NCBI GenBank assembly: GCA_025930755.1
Contig: JAICOJ010000010.1
Coordinates: 1-64,000 of the forward strand
Length of the DNA stretch: 64,000 nucleotides
DNA from: Gemmatimonadaceae bacterium
Lineage (GTDB): Bacteria > Gemmatimonadota > Gemmatimonadetes > Gemmatimonadales > Gemmatimonadaceae
Reading direction: 5' to 3'
Below are positions 1 through 58,560 of the stretch, one piece after another; position 1 is the first letter of the stretch, and each line of letters opens with the position of its first letter. The translations under genes were made by a program, and so were the position numbers. Under the pieces are notes generated by a model. It was not told the DNA's origin. It searched no databases and was given only the letters and a program-made list of their open reading frames with translations.

Positions 1-150
1 AAGGCGAAACGACGACGTTGGCGGATCCGAATGTCGTGGCCAGGCTCAAGGAACAGTACGAGGAGAAGGAATAGGAGTCAGGAGTCAGGGGTCAGGGGTC
101 AGGGGTGGAAAGGGCGGCGCGGCTTCGCCGCAGCCGCCTCATCAGATGAG

Positions 151-180
151 CAAACGGCGGCGCGAATGCGCCGCCGTTTG
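151..180. terminator. Perfect 13-bp hairpin in the centre of the palindrome
   Basis: CAAACGGCGGCGC at 151-163 pairs perfectly with 168-180 around a GAAT loop. It sits at the centre of the larger inverted repeat, 46 bases beyond the acs stop codon. A stem this stable could end transcription from either side, although neither flank has a long T run. Confidence 0.6.
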
Positions 181-226
181 CCTTTCCACCCCTGACCCCT
201 GACCCCTGACTCCTGACTCCTGACTC

Positions 227-2188
<1,962 letters not shown>

Positions 2189-3020: not shown

Positions 3021-3149
3021 AACGGTAAAGATGTCAAATGTCAGAATGCAGAATTCAGGATTCGGACAGGGTCCGCGAGGCAGTATTGGCTGTCCGTGGT
3101 CGCTTCTGAATTCTGTACTCTGTATCCTGACATCTGACATCTTGCCGTT
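3021..3149. repeat. AATTCAG-family palindrome, copy 1
   Basis: Left arm 3021-3060 and right arm 3105-3149 are imperfect reverse complements, sharing AACGG, AAGATGTCA, ATGTCA and CAGAATTCAG blocks. An inner perfect 7-bp stem (CGGACAG 3063-3069 with CTGTCCG 3090-3096) closes the tip. It lies between two plus-strand genes. The same arm sequence recurs at 6879-6977 and 41207-41328. Confidence 0.85.
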
Positions 3150-3193: not shown

Positions 3194-3571
3194 ATGGGCA
3201 TGCCTGACACTCTGACGCGCGTCATGTTCATCGAGGATGAAGCGACGTTGCGCAAGTCGTACGAACGGTTCTTCGCCGATCGATACAGCATGGAGTTCGC
3301 CGCCAGCGGCGCCGAGGCGGTGACCAAGGTTCGACCCTTCGCCCCGGAGGTCGTCGTGCTCGACCTGCGACTTCCCGACACCGACGGCATCGAGGTCATG
3401 CGCCAGGTGCGGGAAATCGATCCGCAGGTGCCGGTCATCATCACGACTGCGTATGTCAGCATGGGACCGCTCGTCTCCATGCTTGCGCTTGGCCGCACAT
3501 CGTTCATGACGAAGCCCTTCGATCTGAACGACCTCGCGCGCAAGATCGACGAAGCCTCGACCCTTCCCTGA
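3194..3571 (+). CDS. Stand-alone response regulator receiver protein
   Basis: A 125-residue CheY-like receiver with no output domain. The phosphoacceptor Asp is in VVVLDLRLPDTDG. An acidic pair sits in the N-terminal FIEDE, the switch Thr in IITTAY, and the conserved Lys in FMTKPF. Start is ATG at 3194; a second ATG at 3200 is equally possible, and neither has a strong ribosome site. It ends 12 bases before the recombinase-like gene, so the two are probably co-transcribed. The partner kinase and the target are unknown. Confidence 0.88.
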   Translation: MGMPDTLTRVMFIEDEATLRKSYERFFADRYSMEFAASGAEAVTKVRPFAPEVVVLDLRLPDTDGIEVMRQVREIDPQVPVIITTAYVSMGPLVSMLALGRTSFMTKPFDLNDLARKIDEASTLP

Positions 3572-3583
3572 GCGCCCGTCGTC

Positions 3584-4495
3584 GTGAGTGACCTTCCGGT
3601 CACGGCACAGCACCCCGAGGTCCACCCCGAGCCGAACTTCGACCCGGTGCATCGATTCAGTGCGTGGCTCGAGCGGATGGATCGCGCGGCCGCGACAATC
3701 GATGCGTATCATGCCGACGTCGCCGACCTCGTCCGCGCCTACGCGCCGCGTCCAGTCGAAGAGCTGTCGCCGCGCGACCTTCGCGAATACCTCTCCGCGC
3801 GCGTCGCGCACGACGAGTGGGCTCCACCGACCGTCCGCCGACACCTGCAGTCGATCAAGACCTTCTACCGCTATCTGATCGCCGAGGAGTCGCTGCGCGC
3901 GCCGGGGCCCGCGGAATCGCTGGATGAGCCGGTGCCCGAGCCGCGTGCGCCGCACGTCATTCCCGTCGCGCAGATCGACATGCTCTTCGAATGGCTCGCG
4001 AAGCGCGCGCGCGACGATGGGTCGGCGCGCATGGACCTGGCGCTGTACGGCCTGTGCTATCATGGAGCGCTGCTGGTCTCGGAAGCCGTGAACCTGACGA
4101 TCGATGCGGTGCGCGGTGGTCCACGCGTGATGCATCTCGAGGTGGTAGGCCGTCGAGGCGCGACGTCGACGGTCACGCTCGAGGGGGAGCCGGCCGCGTG
4201 GATGGCGCGCTGGCTGGCCGAGCGACCGGTGCCGAAGCGCGCGCATCACCGTCCCTTCGTGTTCATCCACCCTCGCACACAGCTCCACACCTCACGCCAG
4301 CGGGCGTGGGACCGACTCAAGCGCGTCGCGCGCGCCGCGGGGCTTCCCGCCGAGACGAGCGAGGCGATCGGTCCGCACTCCCTGCGGCATTCGCACGCCG
4401 CGCACCTCGCTGCCCGCGCGATCGCCGTCGCCGAGGTGCGCGAGGCACTGCGGCAGCGGAGTCCGCGGTACGCCTCGGTGTATTTCCGCGAGTGA
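3584..4495 (+). CDS. Tyrosine recombinase-fold protein lacking key catalytic residues
   Basis: A 303-residue XerC/XerD-like protein with an N-terminal SAM-like core-binding domain (about residues 20-110) and a C-terminal catalytic fold. The HxxR box (PHSLRHSHAAHLA) and a C-terminal Tyr (ASVYFRE) are present. Where active enzymes have GLRVSEL, this one has ALLVSEA, so the first catalytic Arg is Leu. The beta-hairpin Lys (GKGNK region) reads GRRGATS. The LGH position reads LRQ. Three of six catalytic positions therefore appear lost, suggesting a DNA-binding protein without recombination activity or a decaying gene. The frame is intact. Start is GTG at 3584; the TGA stop overlaps the GTG of the next gene. 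Confidence 0.82.
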   Translation: MSDLPVTAQHPEVHPEPNFDPVHRFSAWLERMDRAAATIDAYHADVADLVRAYAPRPVEELSPRDLREYLSARVAHDEWAPPTVRRHLQSIKTFYRYLIAEESLRAPGPAESLDEPVPEPRAPHVIPVAQIDMLFEWLAKRARDDGSARMDLALYGLCYHGALLVSEAVNLTIDAVRGGPRVMHLEVVGRRGATSTVTLEGEPAAWMARWLAERPVPKRAHHRPFVFIHPRTQLHTSRQRAWDRLKRVARAAGLPAETSEAIGPHSLRHSHAAHLAARAIAVAEVREALRQRSPRYASVYFRE

Positions 4496-6878: not shown

Positions 6879-6977
6879 AACGGCAGAGATGACAGAATTC
6901 AGAGTACGCGATTCAGCATTCAGGTAGTTTGACTGAACTCCGAATCCTGTCTTCTGAATTCTGTCATCTTTGCCGTT
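6879..6977. repeat. AATTCAG-family palindrome, copy 2, in a divergent region
   Basis: Left arm 6879-6923 and right arm 6933-6977 pair closely. Both carry AACGGCA, GATGACAGAATTCAG and a second ATTC/TTCAG block. The arms match copies 1 and 3 in order and sequence. Here the flanking genes diverge (minus-strand start at 6764, plus-strand start at 7020), so the palindrome lies in the promoter region of both and is unlikely to be only a terminator. Confidence 0.85.
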
Positions 6978-9105: not shown

Positions 9106-10095
9106 ATGCCCCAGTATCCCCAATACCGGCCACGCCGGCTGCGTCGCACCGCCGCGCTCCGCGCGCTCGTTCGCGAGACGCATCTTCACCCGTCGCAGCT
9201 CGTGCTGCCGCTGTTCGCACGGTCAGGGAGCGGAGTGCGTCGCGACATCGCGGCAATGCCGGGCGTCGCTCAGAGCTCGGTGGACGAGCTGCTGCGCGAT
9301 GCGGAGCGCGCCGCTCGCGCGGGCGTCGGCGGCGTCATCCTCTTCGGAATCCCCGACGTCAAGGACGCATCCGGCTCTTCGGCGTGGGATGCGCACGGGC
9401 CGGTGCAGTCGGCGCTCCGCGCGCTGGCCCGCGAGATTCCCGACCTCGTGCGGATCGCCGACGTCTGCCTGTGCGAGTATACCGATCACGGCCACTGCGG
9501 CGTGCTGCGCGACGGCCACGTCGACAACGACGCGACGCTCCCCTTGCTCGCACGCTCGGCGGTTGCGTTCGCGGACGCAGGGGCGGACATCGTGGCGCCG
9601 AGCGACATGATGGACGGGCGGGTTCGCACCATTCGTGAGGCGCTCGACACGGCCGGCCACGTCGATACGGCGATTCTGTCATATGCCGCCAAGTTCGCCT
9701 CGGCGCTTTACGGACCGTTTCGTGAAGCCGCCGAGTCGACGCCCCAGAGCGGAGACCGCCGCGGCTACCAGATGGATTCCGCGAATGCAGCGGAGGCGGT
9801 GCGCGAGGCGCGTCTCGACATCGAAGAGGGCGCGGACATCGTCATGGTGAAGCCAGCCGGCCCGTATCTCGATATCGTGACGTCCGTGAAGCGAGACACG
9901 GGACATCCCGTCGCGGCGTATCAGGTGAGCGGCGAGTTCGCTATGATTAAGGCAGCCGCCGAGCGCGGATGGCTCGACGGCGATCGCGCGATGATGGAGT
10001 CGCTCCTCGGCATCCGGCGCGCTGGCGCCGACCTGATCGTGACATACTTTGCCGTCGATGCGGCGACCCGCCTGCGAGACGGTCACGCCGAATAA
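9106..10095 (+). CDS. hemB: Porphobilinogen synthase (5-aminolevulinate dehydratase)
   Basis: Condenses two 5-aminolevulinates to porphobilinogen. The 329-residue protein has the zinc-type metal site [14 protein letters not shown] and the two active-site Lys segments [14 protein letters not shown] and [10 protein letters not shown]. It therefore appears to be the Zn-dependent class rather than the Asp-rich Mg class. It starts 11 bases after hemC, so the two are almost certainly co-transcribed. Confidence 0.97.
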
Positions 10096-24402: not shown

Positions 24403-25673
24403 CATCGCGCGATCGCCAGTCCCTCGAGGCGGCGAACGACGAGTACGTGAGACGGCACCCTGGCGAACGTCCGGAACGCCAGCCGGTGCAATCGTTCATC
24501 GAAGGGGCACAGCACTTCCGCGCTGACACGATCTCATCGATCCAGCGGCGCGCGCTCGACGCGCTGGAGGCTTTTGCTCCGGACGGTGACGCGATCGCGC
24601 GCGCCATGATGTTCAGCGGGCGGGAGCGCGCATTTGCCGATGACGTCCACCGCCGCGTCCGACGGAAGCTCGAGACCGAGCCGCTCGAGGACTATCGAAT
24701 CGACTTCGAGGACGGATTCGGCACGCATCCCGACGCGGTGGAAGACGCCGAGGCTCTGCGATGTGCGGACGCGACCGCCGCGGCGATGAAGGCTGGCGCA
24801 CTGCCGCCCGCATTCGGAATTCGCGTCAAGCCGCTGACGCGCGAGCTCGCCGGCCGCGCGCTGCAGACCACCGACCTCTTCATCCAGAGGGTTCTGGCTG
24901 AGGGTGGAGCGGTGCCCGCGAGCTTCATGGTGACGCTCGCGAAGGTGACCGTCACCGAGCAGGTCGCGTATTTCGCCGCTCATCTCGAGGCGATGGAGCA
25001 GCGGATCGGGCTCGATGCGGGAACCCTTCGCATCGAGATCATGGTCGAGACACCGCGGGCGATCATGGACTGGGACGGTCGCTGTCCGCTACCGGGCTAC
25101 GTCGACGCCGCCCGGGGCCGTCTCGCGGCGGCCTCGCTCGGCACGTACGACTACACGGCGGCGCTCGGCATCACCGCGGCGCAGCAGCGGCAGCGACATC
25201 CAGCCTGTGAGCACGCGCGGCTCGTCATGCAGGCGGCGCTCGCCGGCACCGGTGTGCGCGTGAGCGATGGATCCACGGCGATTCTTCCAGTCGAGCCCGT
25301 GGGGCGTGTTCACGAAGCCTGGCGCCTTCACCATGGCGACGTGAAGCACGCGTTGAAGCTGGGGATCTACTCCGGGTGGGACCTTCATCCCGCCCAGCTC
25401 GTGAGCCGCTATGCCGCGCTGTACGCGTTCTATCTCACCGGGCTCGACGCGGCGTCGCATCGCCTCGCGACGTTTCTCGAGGCGGTCACGGAGGGAGGCG
25501 TGCCTCGCGACATCGCGGATGACGTCGCCACCGGTCAGGCGCTGCTCAACTTCCTGCTTCGTGCGATCGCGTGCGGCGCGGGGGATCGAGCGGCGATCGC
25601 GGCGCAAACGGGGATGAGCGAGCACCTCCTCGATGGTCGCTCCTTTCGGCGGGTGCTGGAGGCGCTGGAATAG
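24399..25673 (+). CDS. HpcH/HpaI-like aldolase (DUF6986 type)
   Basis: A 424-residue TIM-barrel enzyme of the PEP-utilising aldolase/citrate-lyase-beta superfamily. Visible signatures are DFEDGFGTHPDAVEDAE, GIRVKPLTREL and RIEIMVETPRAIMDWDG, with acidic Mg-ligand candidates. To my knowledge this type often lies beside urate-degradation genes, and here it faces the urate oxidase gene across an 84-base palindrome. Its reaction is not established; acting on a glyoxylate-type product of ureide breakdown is a reasonable guess. Start GTG at 24399 is coupled to the DHH gene. The last codons (LEALE, TAG) are the template of the tandem repeat that follows. Confidence 0.8.
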   Translation: MTSRDRQSLEAANDEYVRRHPGERPERQPVQSFIEGAQHFRADTISSIQRRALDALEAFAPDGDAIARAMMFSGRERAFADDVHRRVRRKLETEPLEDYRIDFEDGFGTHPDAVEDAEALRCADATAAAMKAGALPPAFGIRVKPLTRELAGRALQTTDLFIQRVLAEGGAVPASFMVTLAKVTVTEQVAYFAAHLEAMEQRIGLDAGTLRIEIMVETPRAIMDWDGRCPLPGYVDAARGRLAAASLGTYDYTAALGITAAQQRQRHPACEHARLVMQAALAGTGVRVSDGSTAILPVEPVGRVHEAWRLHHGDVKHALKLGIYSGWDLHPAQLVSRYAALYAFYLTGLDAASHRLATFLEAVTEGGVPRDIADDVATGQALLNFLLRAIACGAGDRAAIAAQTGMSEHLLDGRSFRRVLEALE

Positions 25674-25757
25674 CGCTGCGGGCGCTGGAACAGCGCTGGG
25701 GGCGGTGGAACAGCAGCGCCTTTCCAGCGCCCTCATGCAGCGCTACTCCAGCGCCTC
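25661..25757. repeat. 20-bp tandem repeat and palindrome derived from the gene's own 3' end
   Basis: Three direct units of 20 bases start at 25661, 25681 and 25701, each reading GGCGSTGGAAYAGC plus variable bases. The first unit is coding: it holds the last codons and the TAG stop of the aldolase gene. In the next units the TAG has become CAG. The bases 25717-25757 contain the same unit in reverse orientation, making a palindrome that ends exactly at the urate oxidase stop codon. Confidence 0.9.
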
Positions 25758-26597
25758 CTATCTCCGTACAATCGCCTCGATGAGGCCGTACGGTTCTTCG
25801 GTTGCCACGAAGATCTCGTTTGGATTATCCAGTCCGAACGGCGCAAGGTCGACGAGGAGATGGTGCTTGTTCGGCAGCGAGAACGCGATCGCATCGATCT
25901 CCGGACAGCGCTCGAGCACTGCCTCACCCATCGCGTAGGCCGTGTGCTGTACGCTGCGACTGTCGTGATCGGCGAACGTCTCGAGCATGATCTCGCGTGC
26001 GCGCGTACGGATCTCGCTGTGTGAGATCTCGCTGAGCCCGTACGTCCAGCGCACGCGCATCGCCGTCGCCAGCACCCGGTCCGATGTCTCACGCAGCGTC
26101 GTGTAGCGATTTCGAGGGTATCCCTCGAATCCCGAGCCGGTGGTCTTGAGCACTCGGAGCTCGTCGATGCCACTCTCGACGCGCACGTCATCGCCCTCGG
26201 CGGTCACCGTCGCGACATCCAGCTCGTCCGACCCGCGCACGAATGCATGTGGATGCGCGCGTCCTCCCACCGGAATGCGATTCCACGCCTGCTCGCGAAC
26301 GGTCACCCGCGCCCGATTGACCACCGGATTCTCCGGCGGAAAGTGCGTGGCGAGTGCGCGCGCAAAGTCCTCGATCGCATCGATCTCGATCTGGCGAGCG
26401 AGCGCGTAGACGGTGTTCTTCATCGTGTCGGTCGGGAGGACGTCGCGATTGTCCCCGCGCACGTGAGCCTCCTCGAAATCGCCCTCGAGCCGGATGGAGA
26501 CGGTGAGATCGCGCAGCTCGTGGCGTCCCTCGCGCCGGCTCACCTTCACGAGCCGCACCCGCGATTTTCCGTAGCCGTTCTCGCCGAGTTGTGCCAT
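25758..26597 (-). CDS. uox: Urate oxidase (uricase)
   Basis: Cofactor-free T-fold enzyme that oxidises urate to 5-hydroxyisourate. The 279-residue protein has GKSRVRLVKV with the catalytic Lys, LPTDTMKNTVYAL with the catalytic Thr, VLKTTGSGFEGY, and the C-terminal LPNKHHLLVDL with the catalytic His. It is the last gene of the purine operon, two bases after the HIU hydrolase stop. The stop codon touches the palindrome. Confidence 0.97.
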   Translation of the reverse strand: MAQLGENGYGKSRVRLVKVSRREGRHELRDLTVSIRLEGDFEEAHVRGDNRDVLPTDTMKNTVYALARQIEIDAIEDFARALATHFPPENPVVNRARVTVREQAWNRIPVGGRAHPHAFVRGSDELDVATVTAEGDDVRVESGIDELRVLKTTGSGFEGYPRNRYTTLRETSDRVLATAMRVRWTYGLSEISHSEIRTRAREIMLETFADHDSRSVQHTAYAMGEAVLERCPEIDAIAFSLPNKHHLLVDLAPFGLDNPNEIFVATEEPYGLIEAIVRR

Positions 26598-41206: not shown

Positions 41207-41328
41207 GGCAAAGACGTCAGATGTCAGAATACAGAATTCAGAATTCAGACAAATCAAACGGGGAGCCGAAGCTTGGGCTCCCCGTGGCCGTTCTTGAATT
41301 CTGAATTCTGACATCCGACGTCTCTGCC
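41207..41328. repeat. AATTCAG-family palindrome, copy 3, with inner hairpin
   Basis: Left arm 41207-41250 and right arm 41296-41328 are near-perfect reverse complements (GGCAAAGACGTCAGATGTCA, CAGAATTCAGAATTCAG). Inside lies a perfect 10-bp stem (ACGGGGAGCC 41258-41267 with 41276-41285). The element fills nearly the whole gap between convergent stops at 41200 and 41334. Confidence 0.9.
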
Positions 41329-44201: not shown

Positions 44202-44203
44202 CT

Positions 44204-44327
44204 GGGGGTCAGGAGTCAGGAGTCAGGGATCAGGGGGTGTCAGGGAGTAGGTGTCGGGAGGGAACGGCCTCACCTCTCCCGGTCCTTTCTCCCTGACACC
44301 CCCTGACTCCTGACTCCTGATCCCTGG
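44204..44327. repeat. GGAGTCA-family palindrome between convergent genes
   Basis: Left arm 44204-44246 and right arm 44290-44327 pair over GTCAGGAGTCAGGAGTCAG and TCAGGGGGTGTCAGGGA blocks. An inner CGGGAG/CTCCCG stem closes the tip. It fills the gap between stops at 44201 and 44330. The units match those at 75-113 and 57525-57580. Confidence 0.9.
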
Positions 44328-44329
44328 TT

Positions 44330-52032: not shown

Positions 52033-53021
52033 TGAGAGCTCAATTCTTCCCGACGCTCGCGCTCGGCGCGATCCTCGCGGGTGCGTGCGCCGACGATCCC
52101 GAGCCGCCGTTCGCGGTCGAGGGAACGGGCCGCGTCACCGGCCAGCTGTTCTTCGACGCCGACAACAACGGGCTCTTCACGCCGTTAGGCGGGGATACGC
52201 TGTTGCGCAACGTCGCGGTGGAGCTTCGCGAGCGCGGCTCGTCGGTGGCGATCGACGAAACGACCACCGACGCGGCCGGGGCATTCGCGTTCGACGGAAT
52301 CCCGCCAGGGACGCACGACGTCTTTCTGGTGCAGGACACGGCCGTCATCAAGAATCTCGTGTTCTGCGTGAATCCGCTGCGTGCGTCCGTGTACCGCGAC
52401 GAAACGGCGTTCATCACGGCACCGGCCAAGCGCGGGTGCGTCGTGCGGATCAACGTGGCCGAGGCGCTTCCGCTGGGGGCGCCGGTCACCATTGCCGGTA
52501 TTGTCACTGCCCGCCAGGGCACCTATCGCAATGACAATACGTACATCCAGGATCCCACCGGCGGTATGCAGATCTTCGGGTTGCCGGGGCTGAACCTCCA
52601 GATCGGAGACAGCATCGAGGTGTCCGGCGTGATTGGGCAGTTCGGTGGCGAGCTGCAGGTGATCAGCCCGATCGTGGCCCCGAATCGGACCGCGACGACG
52701 GCGCCGGCGCCGCTCGAGAGGACGACCGGCGCTGTTGCGACAGCCGTTGCTGCCCTCGGCGCCCGGGAGCCCGACGTAGGACGGCTGCTGGTCGTCAGGC
52801 GTGCCACCGTCGGAACGTTTGCGTCCGGTAACGCCATCCTCAATGATGGGTCGGGCGCGATCCAGATCCGGCTCGACAACAACGCTTCCAGCGCGATCCC
52901 GACCAGTACCTTCGTGGCCGGGCGGTGCTATGACATCGTCGGCATTCTCGGATTCTTCAATGGCACTCCCCAAATCAAACCGCGCATGCTCGCTGACGTG
53001 ACGGAGGTCTCGTGTCCGTGA
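52029..53021 (+). CDS. OB-fold lipoprotein
   Basis: A 330-residue lipoprotein (lipobox ILAGACADD). One SdrD-like module (DADNNGLFTPLGGDTLLRN) is followed by two OB-fold segments with TIAGIVTARQGTYRNDNTYI, QDPTGGMQIFGL and ILNDGSGAIQIRLDN. It resembles a shortened paralogue of the preceding protein without the lamin-tail domain. It overlaps both neighbours, so the three genes are one translational unit. Confidence 0.82.
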   Translation: MMRAQFFPTLALGAILAGACADDPEPPFAVEGTGRVTGQLFFDADNNGLFTPLGGDTLLRNVAVELRERGSSVAIDETTTDAAGAFAFDGIPPGTHDVFLVQDTAVIKNLVFCVNPLRASVYRDETAFITAPAKRGCVVRINVAEALPLGAPVTIAGIVTARQGTYRNDNTYIQDPTGGMQIFGLPGLNLQIGDSIEVSGVIGQFGGELQVISPIVAPNRTATTAPAPLERTTGAVATAVAALGAREPDVGRLLVVRRATVGTFASGNAILNDGSGAIQIRLDNNASSAIPTSTFVAGRCYDIVGILGFFNGTPQIKPRMLADVTEVSCP

Positions 53022-56000
53022 TCCGCCACGCCCGCATCGCGACGCTCGCCTGCGCACTCCTCGCGGGCTCCGTGTCACTGGCCGCCGCGCAGGCCTCGAC
53101 CACGACCGGTAATATCCGCGGCCGTGTCATCGATGAGGCAGGGAATCCACTCCCCGCCGCCACCGTGGTCGCGACGAACGAAGAGACCGGCTTCCAGCGC
53201 GGAACGCAGACGGACGACGACGGCGTTTACGTCGTTCGCTTCCTGCCGCCGGGGAGCTATCGCGTCGCCGCGCGCCGTATCGGGCAACAACAGGCGGAGC
53301 TGCCCGGCATTCGCGTCACCGTCGGCAGCACCGCCCCCGCGAACTTCACCCTGCGCACGGCGGCGGTTCAGCTCACCGGCGTCGAGGTGACCGCGAACGC
53401 GCGTGAGATCGACGTCGCGGACGCCGGCGTGAAGCAGACGGTGTCCCAGGAGGAGATCGCGGAGCTGCCGTCGTTAGGGCGCGACTTCACCGACTTCATT
53501 GCGCTGTCGGGTCTGGTCAGCCCAGCCCCCGAGGTTACCACCGGGGGCCAGTTCGCCATCGCCGGCCAGCGTCCGTCGCAGACGAGCATTCAGATCGACG
53601 GCGTCGACGCCAACAATGCGTTCTTCGGCGAGAACCGCGGGGGGAGCCGCATTCCCTTCGCCTTCTCGCTCGAGTCGATCCGTGAGTTCCAGATCATCAC
53701 CAACGGCTTCGACGTCGAGTTCGGCAACTACTCCGGCGGCGTCATCAACATCGTGACCCAGGGCGGAACCAACGACTTCCGCGCCTCACTCTACGGCAAC
53801 TACCGCGACAAGTCGCTGACCCGCGAAGACTTCGACGGAAATCCGCCGAACAACTTCTCGGTCCAGCAGTACGCGGGCAAGCTGTCTGGCCCGATCGTTC
53901 GCGATCAGCTGCACTATCTCGTCTCGGTCGACGGTCAGCGGAGGCGGGAGCCGTTCCGCTCGATCACGCCCGCCTTCCTGCGCGCCAGTGGCGACGCCGC
54001 CGATGCGGCGAGCGCCGACAGCCTCGAGCGGTTCTTCGATGTCCTCGAGAGCGAGTACGGTGTCGCGGGTGCTGCCTCGCAGTACGGCGAGTGGGAGATC
54101 TCGAACGACGTCCTCACGATCTTCGGTCGCGTCGACTGGACGCTCAACGACCGTCACCGCCTGTCGGTGCGCAACAACTTCTCCGATCACAAGAACCTCG
54201 ACGAGGCGGGCAGCTTTGCGTTCCCCGCCGGCCGCTCGCAGGCCGAGTCCTTCAAGGATCGCGCGAACTCCCTGGTGGGGGAGCTCACCAGCGTCATCAC
54301 GCCCAGCATCTTCAACGTGCTCCGCGTCCAGTATGCGACCGAGGAGCGCCCGCGCATCGGGAACAACCTGAAGCCGGAGCTGCGCGTTCGTCTCGACGCG
54401 AACGAGACGGTGGAGTACGGCGGAGCCTTCATCTCGTTCCGCAACTTCCTCGACGAGACGAAGTTCCAGGTGGTCGACAACGTCACGCTCGCGCTCGGCA
54501 ACCACTCGATCAAGCTCGGCACCAACAACACCTTCACGTCGATCGAGAACATTTTCTGGCTCAACGGCTCGGGTGGCTTCGAGTTCAACTCCCTCGCCGA
54601 CTTCGAGGCGTTCCGCCCATCGCGCTTCAACCGGAACGTGCGGGCGGATTCCGTCACGCCGAACGCCACCTTCGACGTGCAGGAATATTCCCTCTACGCG
54701 CAGGACGAATGGCGCATCACGCCGAAGCTGCTTGGCGTCTTCGGCGTTCGGTACGACGTCCAGCGCTATGGTGATCGGCCGGGACGCGTCGTGGACGCTG
54801 AGCGCGCGTTCGGCCTCGAGACGGGGATCGCGCCCATCGACGACAACAATATCTCGCCGCGCGTCTCGTTCACCTACGACCTGAAGGGTGACGCGACGCA
54901 GCTCATCCGCCTGGGTGCCGGACTCTTCTACGGACGGGTGCCCTTTGTCATGGGCAGCAACGTCGCGAGCACCGACACGCCCCTTCTCGTGGTGGAGTGT
55001 CGCGGCTCACTCGCGGAAGTGCCGACGCCGCCCGACGTGCCGCCCGACGTGAGCAGCTATCCGGATTGGGCCGCGAGTGGAGAGGACAATCCATTCGGCT
55101 GCGGCGGCGCCGGCGGAGTCGGCGGCGTCCCGGAGTACGCCTTCTGGAACAGCGGCTTCGAGATTCCTGAAACCCTCAAGGCGAACATCGGCTACGAGCG
55201 GCAGCTGCGCCCGGGAACGCTCGCGTCGATCGACCTGCTCTTCTCCGAGTCGAGCAAGCTGTACACCGTGCGCAACATCAACCTGCGCGATCCGCAGTTC
55301 CAGCTCGCCGGCGAGGGGGGCCGCCGGGTCTTCGTTCCGGCCGGGCGCTTTTCGCCCAGTAGTGCGGCGGGGACCGACCGGTTCCGCAACGCGGACTTCG
55401 CGAGCGTGTACGTCAACTACAACGACGGCATCGCCCGCTCCTTCGCCGCTTCGCTGAACATCGATCACCGGCTCGGCGACTCCGCGGCGGTGCGCGCGTC
55501 GTACACGTACACGCGTGCCTACGACAACTCGACGTACTCGTGCTGCACGGCCAACGAGGGCTTCACCGGCCAGCGCTACGGCGCGCTCGGGCCGAACGTG
55601 ATCGGAGGCATTGGCGACGAGTCCACCGGATGGGGCCCGAGCAACTTCAACCGTGAGCACACGATCGTGCTCTCGGGCACGTTCCGCCTGCCCTACGGAA
55701 TTCGCGTCAGCCCGAAGTGGAGCATCCGGAGCGGAACGCCGTGGGGACCGGAAGTCAGCGGGGACATCAACGCCGACGGCGTGAACTTCAACGACCGTCC
55801 GTACATCTTCCGTCCCGAAGAGCTGCCCGTGTTCGTGCCGCCGTCGGCAAGCAATCGGGACTCCGTCGTCGCCGCCGCCCGCGCTCGCTACTCGGATTTT
55901 CTCGGGAAGCACGACTGCGTGGGCGATTACGTCGGCCAGATCATTCCGCGCAATACCTGTCGCCAGCCGTGGTTCAATCAGCTCGACATGACCATCCGCA

Positions 56001-56260
56001 AGCGCTTCGAGACGGCGGGTGACCAGGCCGCCGAAGTGCACATCGATCTGTTCAACGTGTTGAATGGGCTGAACAGCGACTGGGGCCGGAACGTCTCGGT
56101 CACCGCGGCGCGCCGCAACCTGCTGCTCGCCCAGGACTACGATGCCGCGAACGGCCAGGTGCGCTACACGGTCCCCGCGCGCTTCGCCGACCGCACGCAG
56201 GTCGGATCGAACCTGCTGCTACAGTTCTCGGCGCAGATCGGGGTGCGGTACTACTTCTAG
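53012..56260 (+). CDS. TonB-dependent receptor with N-terminal carboxypeptidase-regulatory domain
   Basis: A 1082-residue outer-membrane transporter of the Oar/CirA-like type, not SusC. Signal peptide ending SLAAAQ; CarboxypepD_reg domain about residues 30-115 (GRVIDEAGNPLPAATVVA); plug with SQTSIQIDGVDANNAFFGE and GFDVEFGNYSGGVINIVTQG; large barrel ending in the aromatic RYYF. Start is GTG 53012 (GGAGG four bases upstream) or GTG 53018, which overlaps the previous stop. Lying directly after two OB-fold lipoproteins, it may import what they bind. Confidence 0.92.
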   Translation: MSVIRHARIATLACALLAGSVSLAAAQASTTTGNIRGRVIDEAGNPLPAATVVATNEETGFQRGTQTDDDGVYVVRFLPPGSYRVAARRIGQQQAELPGIRVTVGSTAPANFTLRTAAVQLTGVEVTANAREIDVADAGVKQTVSQEEIAELPSLGRDFTDFIALSGLVSPAPEVTTGGQFAIAGQRPSQTSIQIDGVDANNAFFGENRGGSRIPFAFSLESIREFQIITNGFDVEFGNYSGGVINIVTQGGTNDFRASLYGNYRDKSLTREDFDGNPPNNFSVQQYAGKLSGPIVRDQLHYLVSVDGQRRREPFRSITPAFLRASGDAADAASADSLERFFDVLESEYGVAGAASQYGEWEISNDVLTIFGRVDWTLNDRHRLSVRNNFSDHKNLDEAGSFAFPAGRSQAESFKDRANSLVGELTSVITPSIFNVLRVQYATEERPRIGNNLKPELRVRLDANETVEYGGAFISFRNFLDETKFQVVDNVTLALGNHSIKLGTNNTFTSIENIFWLNGSGGFEFNSLADFEAFRPSRFNRNVRADSVTPNATFDVQEYSLYAQDEWRITPKLLGVFGVRYDVQRYGDRPGRVVDAERAFGLETGIAPIDDNNISPRVSFTYDLKGDATQLIRLGAGLFYGRVPFVMGSNVASTDTPLLVVECRGSLAEVPTPPDVPPDVSSYPDWAASGEDNPFGCGGAGGVGGVPEYAFWNSGFEIPETLKANIGYERQLRPGTLASIDLLFSESSKLYTVRNINLRDPQFQLAGEGGRRVFVPAGRFSPSSAAGTDRFRNADFASVYVNYNDGIARSFAASLNIDHRLGDSAAVRASYTYTRAYDNSTYSCCTANEGFTGQRYGALGPNVIGGIGDESTGWGPSNFNREHTIVLSGTFRLPYGIRVSPKWSIRSGTPWGPEVSGDINADGVNFNDRPYIFRPEELPVFVPPSASNRDSVVAAARARYSDFLGKHDCVGDYVGQIIPRNTCRQPWFNQLDMTIRKRFETAGDQAAEVHIDLFNVLNGLNSDWGRNVSVTAARRNLLLAQDYDAANGQVRYTVPARFADRTQVGSNLLLQFSAQIGVRYYF

Positions 56261-56369
56261 GGTCCTCTGGGTCCTCGGGGTCCTCAGGGTTCTCAGGGTG
56301 CGAGGTGCTCAGGGTTTCGCACCCCGAGGACCCCGAGGACCCTGAGGACCCTGAGGACCCCGAGGACCC
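56261..56369. repeat. GAGGACCCT tandem-repeat palindrome filling a convergent gap
   Basis: Bases 56261-56304 carry GGGTCCTCN units and 56319-56369 the reverse-complement units (C/T)GAGGACCC about six times. The element starts on the base after the receptor's TAG and ends on the base before the endonuclease stop codon, leaving no other intergenic sequence. Confidence 0.92.
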
Positions 56370-57494
56370 TCAGTTATTCGGCCAATCCCCAACCGCTGCC
56401 ACGAACTCCGGCCGGTCCACGAACGGATTTCGGTTCCCCTGCGCTCGGAACGCCAGTGAGTTTCGCTGCCGCTCGAAGGCATCCGGCGGATCGGCGTTGT
56501 GCCACTCGATGAGAGTCGCCTCCTCATCGTTGAAGTTGGTGAGCGAGAAGTTGTCGGTGGGACGCAGGTTGTAGCGCGTGTAGAAGTAGAAGATGGCGCG
56601 CGCGATGTCGCCCTTCTTCGCGTTGCGCGGCTCGAACACCGGGTCGCCGGCCGCGTTGAGACCCTGCTTGCTCACATCCCCATCGTTGTCGGGGTCGGGG
56701 CTGGTCCACGTCGGCGTGCCGACCACGACGCCAAACGGAAGGTTCGAGCGACGCGAGTTCGCCGTCTCGTCCGACGGGAAGAGGTGGTGGATGTCGCTCA
56801 TCGCCGGATCGTCTTCCGCGCCGCGGCTCTGCGGCCACGAGTGCTCGGTGTTGAAGTTCGCCGTCACCGCCGTCGCGCGAGAATTCACGGTCGCGACACG
56901 GCCGACGTAGATGTCGGCGAGCAGGTCGTCGTCGTCTGGATCCTCGACGAACGAGTACATCGAGTCGCGCGCATTGTCGTAGCCGAGCACCCGCGCCCGA
57001 CAGACGATGCGGTCGAGGGCGGCGAGGAGCGCCGCTCCGGTCTTCCCCTCGGCGGCGCTGTAATAGCCCGCGGGCAGCGCGGTGTCGGCGCTGAAGGCGG
57101 GCGGTGCACATGCCACCGGTTCCACTGGGGTGCACTGCACCAGCGCGGTGCTCCAGCATCCGCCATACGGACCAGCTCCGCTCACGGCGCGAATCTCGGC
57201 GCGATAGGTCTGGCCCGCGATCGCATCGAAGGTGACGCGCTCGCAATGGTCCGGGGTCGCAGACGACTGCCCGGCCACCGTAAGGTCGAAGTTGAAGCCT
57301 TCCTCGGCGCAAATGGCCACCGTGGTCGGTCCTGAGCGCCCCGGAACGAAGCTCAGTGTGTCGACTTCATTGGCGACCAGCGTGTCGCTGAAGACACCGG
57401 TGAGTGGAAAGCGCGGGTCGACAGGGGAAGTGAAGTCGTCTTCGCAGGCGGCGACCGCGACGAGAATCAAGACAAGTGAAAGCGCACGACGCAT
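56370..57494 (-). CDS. Secreted endonuclease I-family lipoprotein
   Basis: A 374-residue exported nuclease. The signal ends in a lipobox (LVAVAAC). A beta-rich region (about 20-110) precedes the EndA/NucM catalytic domain with FNTEHSWPQSRG, DIHHLFPSDETANSRRSNLP, FEPRNAKKGDIARAIFYFY and NPFVDRPEFV. It would degrade DNA or RNA outside the cell. ATG 57494 is preferred to the upstream one because the lipoprotein signal begins there. It is convergent with the TonB receptor unit. Confidence 0.92.
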   Translation of the reverse strand: MRRALSLVLILVAVAACEDDFTSPVDPRFPLTGVFSDTLVANEVDTLSFVPGRSGPTTVAICAEEGFNFDLTVAGQSSATPDHCERVTFDAIAGQTYRAEIRAVSGAGPYGGCWSTALVQCTPVEPVACAPPAFSADTALPAGYYSAAEGKTGAALLAALDRIVCRARVLGYDNARDSMYSFVEDPDDDDLLADIYVGRVATVNSRATAVTANFNTEHSWPQSRGAEDDPAMSDIHHLFPSDETANSRRSNLPFGVVVGTPTWTSPDPDNDGDVSKQGLNAAGDPVFEPRNAKKGDIARAIFYFYTRYNLRPTDNFSLTNFNDEEATLIEWHNADPPDAFERQRNSLAFRAQGNRNPFVDRPEFVAAVGDWPNN

Positions 57495-57524
57495 GGGGAA
57501 ACTCGTGTTGATTAAAGGCGACAA

Positions 57525-57675
<151 letters not shown>

Positions 57676-57679
<4 letters not shown>

Positions 57680-58560
57680 AAGATCTCGAGGTTTATATAC
57701 TTCCGCGGGTTCTTCTTGAAATCGGCCGTCAACGAATCTACTCGCTGCACCAGCGCGCGCACGTCGTTGTAGAGACCTGGGTCGTTCAGCAGCTTTCCGG
57801 CGCTGCCCTCGCCGCTCTCGAGCTTCGTGAGCAGCGCGCTCATGCGCTCACGCGTGTCCTGAAAGTCGGCCGACAGCTGCGCAAGGTTGGCCGTGGTCGC
57901 CCTGATGTTGCGCATGGTCGAGTCCACCACCGAGGAGTCGATCGCGGTGACGGTGCGGTTGAGGTTTCGCGTGAGGCGGGACAGCTCGCGGGACTGCTCG
58001 TCGGCGATCTGGCTGATCTGCCTCACGAGACGGTTCGTCGATGAGATCGTTCCCTTGAGGTCCTCGATCCCGCCTTCGCGCACCATCTGGATCTCGAAGG
58101 CCTGCGCGACGTCGGAGACGCCGCGGCTCACCGAGTCGAGCCGCGAGAGCAGCGCATCCATCGTCGGTGGGGGCGGCGCGGCGGGAATCGTGTCGCCGGG
58201 TCGCACGCTCGACCGGAAGTTGAGCGGCGGCTCGAGATTGATCGCCATGTCGCCGAAGAACGAGGCGGTCTTCAGCTGCGCGATCACCCCCTCCGGGACC
58301 GGATACTTCTCTTCGACCGCCATCCACACATCGAGCCATCCGTCAGGGCGCAGCTCGACCCGGTCCACCGTACCGACCGCGAATCCCGCCAGCCAGACCT
58401 CCTGCCCCTGCTTGAGGTTCGCGCCCCACCGGAACCGCGTATACAGCGGGTACGTGTCGGAAAGCAGGCCGCTCCGTGACAGCCAGAGCGTTCCGAGAAT
58501 CCCGACGATCAGCGCAACGGTCACGAACACACCAACCAACACTTCGTTGCGTCGCTTCAT
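57676..58560 (-). CDS. mlaD: MlaD-like MCE-domain lipid transport protein
   Basis: A 294-residue protein with one N-terminal membrane helix (VLVGVFVTVALIVGILGTLWL) and an MCE domain (about residues 40-120; LKQGQEVWLAGFAVGTVDRV). A long helical/coiled-coil tail follows (SRELSRLTRNLNRTVTAI). It would carry phospholipid across the periplasm with the MlaE permease, whose gene overlaps it upstream. No MlaF ATPase gene is adjacent. Confidence 0.92.

Follow-up and report, generated by a model that had tools for sequence, protein, structure and literature searches.

The gap between two convergent genes in the stretch of DNA analysed here (the window, 64,000 nt of a Gemmatimonadaceae genome) is filled by a long inverted repeat with tandemly repeated arms. 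We interpret it, with moderate confidence, as one copy of a dispersed, species-specific, REP/BIME-like family that would provide the end hairpin of both neighbouring mRNAs and that undergoes homogenisation within, and replacement between, species. The evidence comprises the copy number of the element, a core common to many copies, the placement at stop codons, a periodicity of 7 or 9, the pairing of arrays into palindromes, a shift of the repeated unit between two congeners and replacement at orthologous junctions. The two genomes compared are the source genome of the window (G000) and a congener (G001) with a median protein identity of ~86-87%; the statistics given below come from 648 kb of G000, in stretches mostly picked for carrying the 9-mer family of the window, and from 1.15 Mb of G001. 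The junction comprises the following features (coordinates are those of the window):

53012-56260, + strand: gene for a TonB/carboxypeptidase-regulatory-like outer-membrane receptor, 1082 aa, ending RYYF-TAG (TAG at 56258-56260)
56259-56296, + strand: left arm, tandem (R)GGGTCCTC 9-mers; the first unit overlaps the AG of the TAG stop
56297-56323, + strand: core GGTGCGAGGTGCTCAGGGTTTCGCACC, 27 nt, non-tandem; intact or degenerate in many other copies
56324-56370, + strand: right arm, tandem GAGGACCC(Y) 9-mers; the last unit overlaps the T of TCA
56370-57524, - strand: gene of the Endonuclease I family, 384 aa (PF04231, E 7e-41); its TGA reads TCA at 56370-56372

The receptor gene carries the Pfam domains OMP_b-brl_4, CarboxypepD_reg and TonB_dep_Rec_b-barrel, and the gap between the two stops spans 56261-56369 (109 nt). 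The first-pass annotation had described a palindrome that exactly fills this gap, with tandem 9-base units on both arms and nothing but repeat between the genes. The gap is indeed filled, but the arms run two bases into one stop codon and one base into the other; direct 9-mer arrays were recovered on both sides (4.6 copies at 56259-56299 and 5.4 copies at 56321-56369); and the palindrome extends throughout, although its core is not tandem. The arms are up to 41-47 nt long and ~90% complementary, the right one being longer by one unit. Such an inverted repeat is far beyond chance: GAGGACCCT occurs in the window four times against 0.43 expected, all four within the gap, and the RNA folds with ~-96 kcal/mol on both strands (z = -9.1 and -10.3), a stability reached by none of 200 shuffles. 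Within the core there is one GAGGTGCTC, which belongs to the unit type of the congener and is possibly a relic.

A strong hairpin on both strands, sitting between two stops, could also be read as a two-way terminator that was selected locally and expanded at the site through duplication of its own units, and a sister family with GAACTGC arms (L068:4230, L072:8681, L074:12211, L091:3831) does possess a core, AAAACCCTCGGG...CCCGAGGGTTTT, whose sequence resembles a two-way intrinsic terminator. We regard growth in place as improbable. A search of G000 (4.27 Mb in 275 contigs) for the window 9-mer family gave 87 matches that merge to ~38 places, all with the one unit, and the core of the window element is common to many of 32 sampled copies, intact or degenerate and in either orientation, which argues for copying of the whole element rather than independent origin and already weakens the notion of a local structure. 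The unit has also shifted in concert in G001 (see below), and no T-tract is present at the window element: 0 terminator-like sites were predicted at 55800-58000, a U-tract follows neither arm of the palindrome, and in the class at large only 6 of 209 ends show at least six T in ten positions. Rho is encoded in G000, and from its position a bidirectional terminator at 56261-56369 is plausible as a prediction.

In the copies of the window 9-mer family the number of units per arm is mostly 3-5 (range 1-10), and in 24 of 30 copies the two arms differ in unit number, an outcome expected from slippage; the slippage that the first-pass annotation had called likely is plausible given these figures. 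Tandem units on both arms and such unequal lengths might also suggest a VNTR whose main property is fast length change, i.e. contingency or phase variation of the neighbouring genes, but this seems very improbable, as the unit numbers cluster at 3-5 and the arrays occur almost only as inverted pairs, behind genes rather than inside or before them.

Among 151 genomes drawn from the order, the exact three-unit pattern GGGTCCTCR of the window 9-mer family was found in G000 only. Among named genomes the array was found in one Gemmatimonadetes MAG (JACQVF), which shares genes with G000 at ~73% DNA identity; there, a perfect GGACCCTGA array occupies two contig ends (L010:685-749 and L034:1-72), and the gene preceding the array ends GGA CCC TGA, with the stop codon inside the first unit. 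The presence of the array in this MAG is suggestive, though no proof, of the phylum to which the window belongs. An origin of the unit by duplication of these last codons was considered and rejected, the sequence being absent from the end of the matching G000 gene (~73% DNA identity). Exact array matches in 42 named-genome and 13 viral stretches were likewise discarded as related elements, as they lack nearby inverse units, save in the JACQVF MAG; one match (L046) has a single inverse unit nearby. Most of the matches outside this MAG sit in long open frames, and these matches as a whole are therefore read as coding repeats. Horizontal spread was rejected as well, with no plasmid or phage match.

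The window carries further palindromes with tandem arms, none of them assigned to a strand:

57526-57655: 7-mer CAGGAGT-family palindrome, tandem-armed, at the other end of the endonuclease gene
44205-44326: CAGGAGT-family palindrome between convergent genes
41207-41328: CAGAATT-family palindrome, with more copies at 3028-3143 and 6879-6977
25658-25758: GGCGCTGRA-family 9-mer palindrome between convergent genes

In the 648-kb sample of G000 we found 106 such palindromes, and none in shuffled controls. Sorting by motif counts yielded about nine unit families, namely GAGGACCCY, CAGGAGT, CAGAATT, GAACGAG, GAACTGC, CACAGAGG, GGCGCTGRA, TCGAGGTSR and GCGGATT. The period is 7 in 61 palindromes, 9 in 40 and some other value in five. 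Non-coding tandem arrays of G000 follow the same pattern, with 93 arrays of period 7, 73 of period 9 and 0-2 at periods 5, 6, 8, 10 and 11, and 151 of the 166 non-coding arrays of period 7 or 9 (~90%) lie inside a palindrome; in G001 the counts are 54 for period 7, 72 for period 9, 10 for period 8 and 1-5 elsewhere. The confinement to periods 7 and 9 stands out as a clean regularity. The elements of the class are ~57-198 bp long (~111 bp for the window copy), and their density is ~9 per 100 kb in the window together with the stretches that were not chosen for the window 9-mer family. Sampling of five further genomes from the family or order gave few or no elements, excepting G017 (5 elements in 20 kb, periods 7, 8 and 12), and the distribution of the class is thus patchy. 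In another genome of the same order (G148), the CAGGAGT pattern reversed as a control (GGACTGAGGACTGAGGACT) matched 50 times, which suggests that a GAGGACT tandem family exists in that genome. Besides, G001 possesses another dispersed family of palindromes of ~196-200 bp that start with GCATCCAAGTTCAAAGG and have GCGGATGCA 9-mer arms (L138:1342-1540, 3492-3689 and 9631-9826; L170:13419-13618).

Three contig ends of G000 (window 2-299, L068:8917-9298 and L075:14390-14711) fold back, with ~105-148 bp of flank repeated inversely around a CAGGAGT-armed palindrome, and are probably assembly fold-backs at the hairpin. These palindrome-centred ends raise the question whether the element at 56261-56369 could itself be an assembly artefact of this kind, an idea that can practically be discounted: the copy lies inside a 65.7-kb contig, its two arms are unlike in both unit number and sequence, and a comparable palindrome occupies the corresponding junction in the separate genome of the congener.

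The class is placed in a characteristic way with respect to genes, which were called with a home-made hexamer caller, so that some elements are absorbed into spurious ORFs and starts are approximate. Between convergent genes in G000 and G001 the median distance from the element edge to the stop is 5.5 nt. In tandem gaps the edge lies a median of 7 nt from the upstream stop vs 35 nt (G000) or 65 nt (G001) from the downstream start, a bias significant in sign tests (p = 0.003 and 6e-8). An element edge falls within 20 nt after the stop in 97 of 611 G000 genes and within 20 nt before the start in 22 of 611. Abutment to stop codons is hence usual for the class in G000 and not peculiar to 56261-56369; the exact filling seen there is the usual geometry. 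Among gaps of at least 60 nt, elements occupy 30 of 46 convergent ones in G000 (65%) and 28 of 65 in G001, vs 12 of 62 and 10 of 110 divergent ones, respectively. The scarcity in divergent gaps, and edges that hug stops instead of lying anywhere in long gaps, count against the possibility that we are dealing with purely selfish or neutral palindromic DNA, which disperses by copying, has no RNA role and survives where it is least harmful, behind stops. The argument is weak, as purging from promoters could give the same picture. That long near-complementary stems are kept despite the change of the unit also speaks against selfish DNA. For it speak several other observations (junctions that are empty in one species with both genes intact, different families at one site between species, the patchy occurrence in the bacterial family and the missing U-tract), and we consider it possible but doubtful.

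Orthologous junctions were compared between the two genomes. At the junction of the element at 56261-56369, G001 (L130/L150) has the same gene pair and a 108-nt palindrome between the stops, built of the 9-mer GGGATCGAG, i.e. with a different unit and a different core, and this palindrome folds with z = -7.7. The junction 44202-44329 has the CAGGAGT unit in G000 vs GCGGATT arms in G001, other co-occupied junctions show GGGTCCTC vs GCGGATGCA and GAACGAG vs GCGGATT, and the junction of the 25658-25758 palindrome has no gap in G001. Other co-occupied sites keep the family, with the unit shifted across its copies: for GGTCCTC:GGTGCTC we counted 214:19 in G000 vs 13:122 in G001, and a similar difference between the two genomes is seen in the GAGGAAC family. 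The change of unit is thus concerted, and elements are replaced site by site between species. Some junctions are filled in one species and near-empty in the other with both genes intact (e.g. 72 vs 6 nt), so that a given site can do without an element and any function it has must be dispensable there. Among 146 gene pairs conserved between G000 and G001, co-occupancy is above chance for tandem pairs (p = 3e-4) and not above chance for convergent pairs (2 of 15 sites, a small sample).

Both genomes have a core CTCATCWGATGAG that is accompanied by two side hairpins (window 138, inside 73-228; L064:14038; L140:4168; L145:908; L156:9613; L173:15580). In G000 its arms are of the CAGGAGT type in six of six copies; in G001 most of 13 copies have arms of GGGCCAR or GGGATCGAR, and some carry a different unit on either side. 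The different arms of this core in the two species hint at interchangeable modules. As a tentative extension, which we hold to be rather unlikely, the elements could represent a distinct class of modular 3'-end elements, in which a core hairpin is capped by interchangeable inverted 7- or 9-mer arrays and the arms are rewritten genome-wide in concert by a process that sets the period to 7 or 9; sister species would then retain site, length and fold, and exchange sequence.

By position and dispersal the elements resemble and work like REP/BIME sequences (GTAG and CGTC superfamilies, PMC3733652), i.e. dispersed intergenic palindromes with many copies and several families per genome, some of them species-specific. 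For REPs, a location no more than 20 bp from the 3' ends of convergent genes has been reported (PMC3733652), and here too the elements lie mostly between convergent or same-direction genes and up to 20 bp from 3' ends, are rare between divergent genes, and may supply part of the stop codon. On the other hand, they are ~100 bp long vs 20-40 bp for REPs, their arms are tandem 7- or 9-mers, the unit at one junction is replaced between congeners, and there is neither a consistent GTAG/CGTC tag nor a linked RAYT. GTAG is found at 6.1% and 2.7% of element ends vs a background of 1.4% and 1.3%, with a contribution from TAG stops, and CGTC lies below background. Mobilisation of the RAYT/IS200 type was rejected: the single Y1_Tnp (RAYT-like) gene of G000 (L132:1402-2148) is not flanked by any palindrome of these families, and no such gene was detected in G001 (81% complete). 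No mobilising enzyme for the elements was found in G000 or G001.

Among other known systems, the heptameric repeats of Xanthomonas and Nostoc (GGGNATC type, PMC4692102) are similar in their 7-base units and intergenic location, often within 50 bp of a stop, and are under-represented between divergent genes; however, they have been described as direct, G-quadruplex-forming arrays, whereas the arrays found here are almost always inverted pairs, i.e. hairpins, and include 9-mers besides 7-mers. Bidirectional intrinsic terminators have in common with the window element a strong G+C-rich hairpin on both strands between convergent stops, but the present elements lack a U-tract, are dispersed with a common unit and core and have a stem of ~40 bp. 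MITEs are likewise dispersed, non-coding, ~100 bp long and equipped with inverted arms; unlike them, the elements analysed here have tandem arms, a strict placement at stop codons and no identified parent transposon or target-site duplication (by eye, none is clear at filled vs empty junctions). Without REP tags, a linked RAYT or a U-tract, the elements can be classed neither with the tagged REPs nor with ordinary intrinsic terminators. In Rfam no match scored above the gathering threshold, those below it being mostly to microRNA-precursor hairpin models, and we found no description of such tandem-armed palindromes in the open literature searched.

The RNA function and the mode of dispersal that we infer for a REP/BIME-like family of this kind are as follows. 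Each copy consists of a short core flanked by inverted arrays of 9-base units and is lodged directly behind stop codons; a transcript from either gene would form a ~40-bp stem starting at the stop codon. This stem most likely fixes and protects the 3' ends of both convergent mRNAs after Rho-dependent termination, and most likely limits antisense read-through. A translational effect of stop-adjacent elements is a further possibility by analogy with REPs, which, when located up to 15 nt from the stop, have been reported to reduce translation and stall ribosomes (PMC12306157). The elements would spread by whole-element copying or by gene conversion among copies, and their arms would lengthen and shorten by slippage of units; together, these processes would leave the unit homogenised within a species and replaced between species.

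The usual view is that slowly evolving hairpins, or else Rho, mark the ends of bacterial genes. In the present case, long palindromes occupy a large proportion of convergent junctions, and from one congener to the other their sequence at a site is exchanged, with architecture and position retained; contig ends that are broken or folded back in these genomes coincide with the elements as well. The exchange between congeners amounts to a set of natural replicates with which one can ask whether selection acts on the fold rather than on the sequence, and it also allows one to ask how dispersed bacterial repeats evolve in concert.
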